From the NCBI GenBank assembly GCA_013361785.1, contig JABFXK010000019.1:1-41651 (forward strand): a stretch of DNA of 41,651 nucleotides, in the 5' to 3' direction. The notes under the pieces were generated by a model, which worked only from the letters and a program-made list of their open reading frames with translations, was not told where the DNA came from and made no database searches. The position numbers were made by a program, and so were the translations under genes. Shown here in pieces: positions 15,765 to 18,666 of this stretch. This DNA comes from Sphingomonas sp. GTDB lineage: Bacteria; Pseudomonadota; Alphaproteobacteria; Sphingomonadales; Sphingomonadaceae. How positions within the stretch are numbered: the stretch's first letter is position 1; every line of letters starts with the position of its first letter.

Positions 15765-16238
15765 TCAGTTGCGCTGCCGCCTCGGGCGCCGTCGCGGCCT
15801 TGAGCCCTTGCCGCGCAGCAGATGGATGACAAGCACCAGCGGAACCGCAATGCCGGCGAGCCAGTGCACCAGGCTGAACCATGAGCGAAGCGCATCGGCG
15901 GTCGAATAATAGAGCGCGAGCCCGGTCGCGGCGAGGAACAGGCTCACTCCGACCAGCAGCAGTCCGCTCGGCCGGTTTCGGTGAGAACTCCACCCGAGGC
16001 GCATGTGCACCGGCGTCAGCATCGCAGCGACGATGACGAACGCGTACGCGACAATCCCGTGAAGCATCAAAAGCCATGGAAGCGCAGGATTGGGTTCCGG
16101 GCCGAATTCGCCCTGTACCTTGGCAAAGCGATCGAGCAGCAGCCATGCGACGCCGGTGAGCAACAGGACGGCGGTGGTCAGATAGATCAGCCACTCGTGC
16201 CAGCCGGGCAACTTGAGATTGAAGCTCGGCCGTTTCAT
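15765..16238 (-). CDS. Small 4-TM b-type-cytochrome-like membrane protein (DUF4405/cytochrome b561-like)
   Basis: Four hydrophobic segments with His residues in or next to membrane spans (WHEW, LHG, PVHM, LVHW, VIHLL); ATGA overlap with apbE. Confidence 0.65.
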   Translation of the reverse strand: MKRPSFNLKLPGWHEWLIYLTTAVLLLTGVAWLLLDRFAKVQGEFGPEPNPALPWLLMLHGIVAYAFVIVAAMLTPVHMRLGWSSHRNRPSGLLLVGVSLFLAATGLALYYSTADALRSWFSLVHWLAGIAVPLVLVIHLLRGKGSRPRRRPRRQRN

Positions 16239-17044
16239 GCGGCGAGGCGCTCAATCGTTTCGATCGAGCCTGACCGCGTAATGACCAGACCGTCGCCACC
16301 AACCAGCGACAGGCAGTGCGAGGCGCGGTCGCTGCGCGAAATCAGCACCTTCACCAGCGCATCGGCGTCGATGCAGGTTGGCGCGCGGACGCTCGCCGAC
16401 AGGTAGGTTGCATCGCGGTCAGGTAAATGGCTGCCCGTGCCGTCGGGCAGAAGCCCGCTGGTGGCGACCGCATCGTCGCGGACGATGAGCTCGACGATCT
16501 CGCGGCGGGTGTGTCCATGCGGGATCGCCGCGCGCCATTCCCGTCCGAAGCCCGCGAGATCGCCGCCGGCGTTGATGAGGCCGTAGTCGGCCCCGCAAGA
16601 GCGAAGTGCCTCGACGGCTCGATCGACCGCAAAGCCCTTCGCAATCCCGCCAACATCGACACACGCGGCCTTGGCCAGCCGCACCGTATTGCCGTCGAGC
16701 TGAAGCTCCGCCCAATTGCCTGCCTGCGCCTCCGGCTGATCGGCAGGGCGGGGGAGATAGCCGCCCGCCAAAGCCAGCTTCCCGGCACGAACGACATCGA
16801 ATGCGCCGTCGCTCTGCTGCGACCAGAATTGCGCGCGCCGGAGCACGGCGACGGTCCAGTCGTCCACTTCGACGCTCACTCGATGCGCAAACCGGTTGAT
16901 CCGCGAAACGTCGCTCTCGGGCTCATGTGCGCTCATCAGCCGATGAACCCGCTCGACAGCGGCGTATGCCCTCTCGATCGCAGCTTCGCCGCCCGCCGAG
17001 ATCTCGACGAACGTGCCGAGCAGCGGACGGCAGCGGCTAAGCAT
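16235..17044 (-). CDS. apbE: FAD:protein FMN transferase (ApbE)
   Basis: RPLLGTFVEI, ACVDVGGIAKGFAVDRA, INAGGDL motifs. Confidence 0.92.
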   Translation of the reverse strand: MLSRCRPLLGTFVEISAGGEAAIERAYAAVERVHRLMSAHEPESDVSRINRFAHRVSVEVDDWTVAVLRRAQFWSQQSDGAFDVVRAGKLALAGGYLPRPADQPEAQAGNWAELQLDGNTVRLAKAACVDVGGIAKGFAVDRAVEALRSCGADYGLINAGGDLAGFGREWRAAIPHGHTRREIVELIVRDDAVATSGLLPDGTGSHLPDRDATYLSASVRAPTCIDADALVKVLISRSDRASHCLSLVGGDGLVITRSGSIETIERLAA

Positions 17045-17588
17045 TCCTGAGCAGCAGCTGATAGGTCGCGAGCAGGCGCCGGATTCCGTCGGTCACGTGA
17101 CGGCTCGAGAGCGTCGCGCCCGAAATGTTCTTGATGTCCTTGCCGAGCTGCAACGCGGCGCCGAAGCGCTTGCCGACGAACTGCTGGCGCCACGCCGCAT
17201 TGCGGATCTCGCCCCCGTAAGTCTCGCGATATTCCAGAATCTCGACGCGCTTCACCGCGCCGTCCGGAGTGAGCGCGACCGCATAGGTGATGTAGTCATG
17301 CTTCCCGACCACTCGGTCGACGATGAACCACCCGGCGCGGACGTTTCCCTGGCGCGCGTCCCAGACGTGGAGGACATTGTCGAAGCTGCCGACATGCGAC
17401 GCGCTGGCGATCGCCTTGCGCTGGGCGGGCGTTAACACGAGTTCGTGGGCGACGAAGCGCGAACCTGGGAACATCGCCTGCTGCGCCTGCTCGACCGACA
17501 TATAGACGGTGGCAAGAACGGACGCGGGGACGACCGCGGCGGCAGCCCCCGGAATGACAATGAACCAGCTCCGACCTGCTCTACTCAT
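17037..17588 (-). CDS. FMN-binding domain protein, membrane-anchored or exported, with ApbE-type flavinylation motif SGAT (Thr159, codon 17112-17114)
   Basis: N-terminal hydrophobic segment; DIKNISGATLSSRHVTDGIRRLL matches the flavinylation motif context; next to apbE. Confidence 0.88.
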   Translation of the reverse strand: MSRAGRSWFIVIPGAAAAVVPASVLATVYMSVEQAQQAMFPGSRFVAHELVLTPAQRKAIASASHVGSFDNVLHVWDARQGNVRAGWFIVDRVVGKHDYITYAVALTPDGAVKRVEILEYRETYGGEIRNAAWRQQFVGKRFGAALQLGKDIKNISGATLSSRHVTDGIRRLLATYQLLLRNA

Positions 17589-18457
17589 CAGAATTCGTAC
17601 CCAAAAATGACCCTGAACTCACGCTTTTCGAATTCGTCGAGAGCACGGCCCCCGCGCGGGCTCGGAGAGCCGAACAGCTGCGGCTGATAGCTCGCCGTCA
17701 CCCACCATTTCTTTGCCGCATAGTGGATCGTCGGACCGCCGAACACGGCATAGGTCTCGCGGTGCAAGCCATGCGTGAAGTCGGGATAGACGCTGGAGTA
17801 GCGCCCCTCGAGTCCTGCGAACCAGCCGGGAGCGACCCGGTATGCGACGCCGGTCGTCACGTGCAGCTTGAGTTCTTTCTCCCACTCGCTCTCGCGCGCG
17901 CCGGTCTCCTCGTCGATCTCTTTTTCGTGTTCCCACTCCGGCTCGAACACGAAGTTCGTCGCCCAGATGAGGCGGTCGTCGAGGAAGTTCTTCTGGAGGA
18001 TCGCTTTCAGTTCGAGCTCATATTCGGTGCCCTTCTCCCCTTCAACGCTGTGGATTCGCGACCAGGCCGGCTCGGCGTAAAGCGTCAGTCCGACGCCGTC
18101 TTTGTACGGGCTGAGGACATTATATTTGATCTCCGAGGAAAGCCCCTGAAGCGCGAAGTTGCGGTGGACGTCCTCGAAGTCGGGCTCGAGACCGCGGATG
18201 TGGTGGCTGCCAAGGTTGAGATAGCCGGATAGCGTCAGCCGGTCCGTGAAACCGTGCTCGATCTCGATCCGGTAATCCTGGGCATCATAATGCCCCGTCT
18301 CCTTGCCTCGGCGGTCGGTCGCCCACAGCTCGATCTCGGTCTCGCCCTTCGGCATCGGCTCGGCTGAGTAGGTGTAGCCGAAATAGCGCTCGTCCGCCTG
18401 CGCCGGAGCCGACGCAAGAGCTGCCACGCCGAACGCGAAGACCCATATATTCCTCAC
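17588..18457 (-). CDS. Outer-membrane beta-barrel-like protein (resembles DUF6662 proteins)
   Basis: Signal peptide MRNIWVFAFGVAALASAPAQA; alternating beta-strand pattern; C-terminal aromatic (IFGYEF); GTG start; TGATG junction with the FMN-binding gene. Confidence 0.65.
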   Translation of the reverse strand: MRNIWVFAFGVAALASAPAQADERYFGYTYSAEPMPKGETEIELWATDRRGKETGHYDAQDYRIEIEHGFTDRLTLSGYLNLGSHHIRGLEPDFEDVHRNFALQGLSSEIKYNVLSPYKDGVGLTLYAEPAWSRIHSVEGEKGTEYELELKAILQKNFLDDRLIWATNFVFEPEWEHEKEIDEETGARESEWEKELKLHVTTGVAYRVAPGWFAGLEGRYSSVYPDFTHGLHRETYAVFGGPTIHYAAKKWWVTASYQPQLFGSPSPRGGRALDEFEKREFRVIFGYEF

Positions 18458-18495: not shown

Positions 18496-18519
18496 AATGC
18501 GAGTAATTTGCAATTGCAA
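18496..18519 (-). promoter_or_regulatory. Palindromic element AATGCGAGTAATTTGCAATTGCAA (Fur-like TGCGAGT-A-ATTTGCA plus perfect palindrome TTGCAATTGCAA)
   Basis: Direct inverted repeats, about 40-60 nt upstream of the 18457 start of the flavinylation operon. Confidence 0.4.
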
Positions 18520-18592: not shown

Positions 18593-18666
18593 GGCCCGAT
18601 GGCGGAGTGGTTACGCAGAGGACTGCAAATCCTTGCACGCCGGTTCGATTCCGGCTCGGGCCTCCA
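18593..18666 (+). tRNA. tRNA-Cys (anticodon GCA)
   Basis: 74-nt cloverleaf GGCCCGA...GAGGA-CTGCAAA-TCCTT...GGTTCGATTCC...TCGGGCC-T-CCA. Confidence 0.95.

Follow-up and report, generated by a model that had tools for sequence, protein, structure and literature searches.

A conserved four-gene operon of Sphingomonas, proposed to encode an iron-starvation-induced, flavin-based ferric reductase with its own outer-membrane channel

Results

Four overlapping genes behind a Fur-box-like operator

The window, meaning the whole stretch of DNA analysed, comprises 41,651 nucleotides from Sphingomonas sp. (GenBank assembly GCA_013361785.1, contig JABFXK010000019.1). Positions 15765–18457 carry four overlapping genes on the minus strand, with reading frames and overlaps as described in an earlier note on this DNA. 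The first gene (17588–18457, GTG start, 289 residues) belongs to DUF6662 (Pfam PF20367, 1.7e-34). It is followed by an FMN_bind gene (17037–17588, 183 residues; PF04205, 4.5e-11), a gene for ApbE, an FAD:protein FMN transferase (16235–17044, 269 residues; PF02424, 1e-36), and a gene for a predicted four-helix b-type cytochrome (15765–16238, 157 residues; Pfam Ni_hydr_CYTB, 3.5e-7). The DUF6662 and FMN_bind genes overlap in TGATG at 17588, the FMN_bind and apbE genes over 8 nt, and the apbE and cytochrome genes in ATGA. The profile searches that the earlier note had proposed were positive for DUF6662, FMN_bind and ApbE and negative for DUF4405, which fell below its cut-off, Ni_hydr_CYTB being matched instead. 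A Fur-box-like operator, TGCAAATTACTCGCA (18498–18512, minus strand), lies ~40 nt upstream of the GTG start and agrees with the 7-1-7 Fur consensus at 13 of 14 informative positions.

A tRNA-Cys gene (18593–18666, opposite strand) adjoins the start of the operon; this neighbour and the patchy distribution described below could be signs of an acquired segment. By ORF reading, the other flank holds genes for a protein-isoaspartate methyltransferase and a TolC-like protein. The assembly (2.34 Mb, 88% complete, 6% contaminated) contains a second complete copy of the operon with the same gene order on another contig (L001, G000:C136:19033-22269) and a third copy cut by a contig edge (L003, G000:C35:1-1714). 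The two full copies are 73% identical in the barrel, 67% in FMN_bind, 52% in ApbE and 47% in the cytochrome, a divergence well above strain level, though mixed strains in the assembly may explain some of it; the copies are either real paralogues or the product of a mixed bin.

The four genes form a conserved unit

DUF6662 is sparse. At genus level, family searches found it in 8 of 61 genomes, at family level in 8 of 251, at order level in 14 of 401 and at phylum level in 11 of 399, the window's own genome being included each time. An FMN_bind gene adjoins DUF6662 in 36 of the 39 loci from these searches; the exceptions are a gene in genome G036, a gene in G050 and one member of the pair in G937. 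The stand-alone genes in G036 (L018:1438-2322) and G050 (L017:1474-2310) have no FMN_bind, ApbE or cytochrome gene beside them.

In the reverse direction, we collected 80 loci by similarity to the FMN protein. These are the best 80 of 548 matches to a query built from DUF6662-linked proteins, so that counts based on them are biased, as those of the DUF6662 family search are not. All four genes are present in the same order at 69 of these best 80 loci, and the DUF6662 barrel at 72. The 80 loci come from Proteobacteria, Verrucomicrobiota and Acidobacteriota, with a few, possibly misbinned, in bins labelled Omnitrophota, Chlamydiae and Rokubacteria. The flanking genes differ almost completely from locus to locus; the four genes therefore travel as a block, and we dropped conserved neighbours as a clue to function. 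The arrangement recurs far above chance, and the four-gene set is a real conserved unit present in many unrelated bacteria. Isolates that carry it include Luteibacter rhizovicinus, Dyella japonica and Sphingomicrobium nitratireducens. These counts bear out the earlier note, which had read the genes as one functional unit and had asked whether their synteny is conserved.

The DUF6662 protein is a predicted outer-membrane barrel

The product of the first gene matches DUF6662 with 120.1 bits against a cut-off of 27 (Pfam), and 73 of 73 homologues match the same family. It has a signal peptide, an AlphaFold model in the form of a closed barrel of 12 strands (pLDDT 93.3, pTM 0.88) and a C-terminal Phe, a residue also found at the C terminus of 116 DUF6662 homologues. 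The signal peptide, the closed barrel and the aromatic C terminus predict an outer-membrane beta-barrel, in line with the outer-membrane component that the earlier note had proposed. The closest solved folds are FapF, the Pseudomonas putida COG4313 channel and NanC (TM-score 0.5–0.64, identity 10–14%), which share the 12-strand fold at an identity of only ~12%. To our knowledge, none of the three is tied to a flavoprotein operon.

Eight of the best 80 FMN_bind loci (of 548) lack DUF6662, one of which starts at a contig edge. At each of the other seven, a different barrel protein adjoins the unit, directly upstream of FMN_bind in five cases and downstream of the cytochrome in two. In BLAST comparisons these substitute barrels group together; Porin_O_P is matched by five, in one case just under the cut-off. 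Because all seven interior loci without DUF6662 keep another barrel, an outer-membrane channel appears to be part of the design, its type being variable. The earlier note had regarded an outer-membrane protein as an unusual component; in this subfamily a barrel is the rule.

The barrel genes vary further. The substitute Porin_O_P-like proteins, encoded at L051:8052-9317, at L097:9956-11275 and by upstream genes at L073, L075, L088, L091 and L108, have an N-terminal stretch resembling a coiled coil. A Porin_O_P-like protein is encoded in addition to DUF6662 at L055, L061, L062, L064, L070 and L087. Tandem DUF6662 genes stand upstream of FMN_bind mainly in Verrucomicrobiota (L034:5930-7997, L056:4891-6746, L084:3856-5601, L094:5899-7695).

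We propose that DUF6662 forms a channel for small ferric chelates. Transport in the opposite direction has some appeal, since FapF, the closest solved fold, is a secretion channel and Caulobacter riboflavin synthesis is iron- and Fur-responsive (PMC3751524): the barrel would then export a small electron shuttle, such as a flavin, or a peptide, to reduce or mobilise iron outside the cell, with recharging by the flavoprotein. The ~12% identity to FapF, with the COG4313 channel and NanC close behind, the resemblance of the substitute barrels to uptake porins, and the lack of any shuttle or peptide gene conserved beside the unit make this reading very improbable.

A predicted exported flavoprotein and di-heme cytochrome

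The FMN_bind protein carries the SGAT-type flavinylation motif DIKNISGATLSS with Thr159 noted earlier; Thr159 is invariant in 11 homologues, and the SGAT motif is nearly constant across the FMN_bind homologues. Its closest solved relatives are RnfG and NqrC, which likewise have a flavinylated FMN_bind domain with an SGAT-type motif. Those proteins are anchored, whereas the protein encoded here has a cleavable Sec signal (predicted cleavage SVLA|TVYMS), and the unit is free of Rnf and Nqr subunits. Among the best 80 of 548 FMN_bind homologues, 68 have an AxA-type cleavage site ahead of a conserved YLS and none has a lipobox, which argues against the membrane anchor that the earlier note had assigned to this protein. 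We infer that it is exported and flavinylated at Thr159.

The model of the cytochrome (pLDDT 93.3) has helices at residues 12–38, 53–85, 89–111 and 115–144. All 65 homologues keep His60, His78, His125 and His139. His60 (helix 2) and His125 (helix 4) lie towards one end of their helices, His78 and His139 towards the other. This is the usual pattern for two b hemes and predicts a di-heme cytochrome, with both termini and the middle loop placed in the cytoplasm by K and R counts. The domains, the flavinylation motif and the four invariant His thus point to the pairing of a flavinylated FMN_bind protein with a b-type membrane protein that had been suggested from the sequence. The modelled four-helix bundle with its His pairs fits the class of prokaryotic cytochrome b561 and hydrogenase cytochrome b, and E. 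coli hydrogenase-1 cytochrome b accounts for its three highest-ranking fold matches (E-values 0.02–0.05).

The Ni_hydr_CYTB match is just above its cut-off (30.6 versus 30.1 bits), and the DUF4405 match is below (E-value 0.08, 13.9 versus 26.7 bits). DUF4405 cytochromes encoded with apbE are likewise small membrane proteins with four conserved His, but are described as having six helices (PMC11334425), whereas the window protein has four and matches Ni_hydr_CYTB better. We therefore rejected an assignment to DUF4405, which is weakly matched by 30 of the 65 cytochrome homologues (best 2e-5). NCBIfam has no specific family for the cytochrome, and neither Pfam nor NCBIfam finds a PepSY-like, MsrQ-like, NapH-like, DsbD or NQR/RNF-like family in the window protein; one of the 65 homologues matches MsrQ.

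An ApbE with no recognised export signal

The ApbE domain is clear (127.3 bits in Pfam; PDB ApbE relatives at 1e-11). Most homologues have the sequence ADALTK. In characterised ApbEs, a metal-site Thr stands one position later than in ADALTK. Activity of the module's ApbE is predicted from the domain and is not to be assumed.

The protein starts almost directly with the RPLLGT motif, which is preceded by at most 18 residues in 84 of 85 gene models. Fewer than 25 codons separate the preceding stop from this motif in 31 of 64 frames, and the remaining 33, longer frames contain no hydrophobic stretch; no signal peptide or lipidation site was recognised in the window protein or its homologues. The module thus appears to combine an ApbE that lacks an export signal with an exported FMN_bind substrate, a conserved mismatch. 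Either the flavin would be added before export, or ApbE would leave the cytosol by an unrecognised route. We considered and rejected twin-arginine export of the FMN protein, since none of the 80 homologues (the best 80 of 548) has a twin-arginine motif. Cytosolic ApbE is known, but acting on a cytosolic substrate (PMC12052999). In five genomes (G056, G051, G045, G449 and G720) the module's ApbE is the sole ApbE found.

Fur-like boxes are enriched ahead of the operons

Fur-like boxes were scored in the 200 nt ahead of the first gene as 7-1-7 with at least 12 of 14 matches. A box precedes 25 of 72 operons. Among the other genes in these loci the count is 22 of 636, and dinucleotide shuffles give an expectation of 2.1 in 72. 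Fisher's test of operons versus other genes yields P 7e-15, an optimistic value because the consensus was chosen after inspection of a handful of the promoters and because the loci are in part related to one another. The contrast between operons and other genes is large. The box is mainly proteobacterial (22 of 43 operons, versus 3 of 29 in other phyla), so Fur control is not shown everywhere. It also stands ahead of the two stand-alone DUF6662 genes (G036 and G050), linking DUF6662 in its own right to iron. The genes directly adjoining the unit belong to FUR more often than to any other Pfam family, yet in only 3 of 108 cases. Adjacent or close upstream FUR-family genes are seen at L069, L072, L096 and L105, in Acidobacteriota and in bins labelled Chlamydiae and Omnitrophota.

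The 20-nt form TGCRAATTANTCGCATTAGC occurs, with up to three mismatches, at only three sites in the 2.34-Mb genome, and the reversed control gave none. Two of the sites precede the window operon and its second copy; the third is directly ahead of a gene reading as bacterioferritin-associated ferredoxin (bfd), followed by bacterioferritin (bfr). Iron limitation or the absence of Fur raises bfd expression ~40-57 fold in Caulobacter, where a PepSY/DUF2271/ApbE operon is induced as well (PMC3751524). By ORF reading, similar sites in related genomes lie ahead of a TonB-receptor gene in one case and, in another, of a PepSY-type gene accompanied by a TonB receptor. The box and the site shared with bfd-bfr suggest that the operon is induced by iron starvation through Fur, and they favour the link to Fe(III) that the earlier note had drawn.

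Control by a Fur box would favour iron assimilation over respiration to an extracellular acceptor. The earlier note had placed the electron acceptor at or beyond the outer membrane, a reading in which electrons traverse or bypass the outer-membrane protein on their way to an extracellular acceptor and which draws on the co-encoding of a membrane cytochrome, a flavoprotein and an outer-membrane protein. By analogy with known barrels, a 12-strand barrel would be too narrow to hold an FMN domain. Barrels of this kind belong to the size class of small-molecule channels, and large porin-cytochrome conduits are of a bigger class. The unit also encodes no cofactor-binding or extracellular redox protein. 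We consequently give respiration to an extracellular acceptor very little weight and regard an assimilatory ferric reductase as the likelier function.

Fur-box control would also be consistent with a flavoprotein that spares iron by standing in for c-type cytochromes of the periplasm, either in respiration or in redox maintenance, the barrel being unrelated housekeeping; flavin carriers have been proposed as substitutes where iron is poor (PMC8238504). Yet one protein kept in the unit would itself presumably require two hemes, the neighbourhood of the unit includes no conserved terminal reductase, and the constancy of an outer-membrane channel, even where DUF6662 is replaced, would go unexplained. 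We consider this role unlikely.

Discussion

Proposed function

We propose that the operon encodes a flavin-based ferric reductase that serves iron assimilation, is induced by iron starvation and has an outer-membrane channel of its own, and assign this reading a probability of roughly 0.6. When iron is short, Fur would leave the box at 18498–18512 and the four genes would be made. The DUF6662 barrel would admit small Fe(III) chelates to the periplasm. The cytochrome would take electrons from the quinol pool and pass them across the inner membrane, via its two b hemes, to the FMN attached by ApbE to Thr159 of the exported FMN_bind protein. The flavoprotein would then reduce Fe(III) to Fe(II) in the periplasm, freeing iron from the chelator for a separate Fe(II) transporter. 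The quinol donor, the ferric-chelate acceptor, the direction of transport and flavinylation itself are all inferred. The four-gene unit contains no Fe(II) transporter. FeoB is found in 52 of the 61 genus genomes, with or without the module, and no FeoB_C match is present in the window's own incomplete assembly; FeoB and PepSY_TM, both in 52 of 61 genus genomes, were set aside as uninformative correlates of the module.

More tentatively, and with the odds against it, we suggest jointly that DUF6662 represents a new class of outer-membrane channel, induced by iron starvation and feeding a dedicated flavin-based ferric reductase, and that the substrate receives its flavin in the cytosol, ahead of export by Sec. 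Cytosolic attachment is proposed because the module's ApbE lacks the export signal that its substrate has.

Relation to known systems

PepSY/DUF2271/ApbE operons, which Fur represses, have been implicated in the reduction of iron in the periplasm (PMC8238504; PMC12004947). Like the present module, operons of the PepSY/DUF2271/DUF4198/ApbE type (e.g. Caulobacter CC3059-CC3063) combine ApbE, an exported flavinylation substrate and a b-type membrane protein. Fur control, here predicted, and a proposed reduction of periplasmic Fe(III) are also shared (PMC8238504, PMC3751524, PMC12004947). The substrate is DUF2271 there and FMN_bind here; the membrane protein is PepSY there and a four-helix cytochrome of the b561/hydrogenase type here; and a TonB receptor is sometimes present there, in contrast to the small 12-strand barrel here. 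As the substrate domain, the membrane protein and the outer-membrane protein all differ, the module is not a member of the PepSY/DUF2271 group. DUF3570 is another formerly unknown-function family tied to apbE, but is itself flavinylated at two sites (PMC8238504), whereas the DUF6662 consensus has no conserved SGAT-type motif.

Neither DUF6662 nor a small barrel of this kind appears in the main text of the 2021 and 2024 flavinylation surveys, whose supplementary tables may list members without comment. As described in the text of the 2021 survey, genes without a signal peptide were left out, and the module's ApbE would be missed by such a requirement. DUF6662 is named nowhere in the literature searched, and a search of work on Fur together with ApbE or FMN-binding proteins found no report of this four-gene module. 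Fur-box control, substitution by a second porin type and an ApbE that lacks an export signal are new relative to the earlier note.

The analysis provides a testable function for DUF6662, an uncharacterised outer-membrane family, and extends the 2021 and 2024 surveys by a flavinylation system that is predicted to be regulated by iron and to have a channel of its own. Cytosolic attachment of the flavin, if real, would contradict the view that exported proteins receive covalent FMN after export, and the periplasm would then need no supply of FAD. Because the module's ApbE is the sole ApbE found in the five genomes named above, the site of flavinylation is directly testable.
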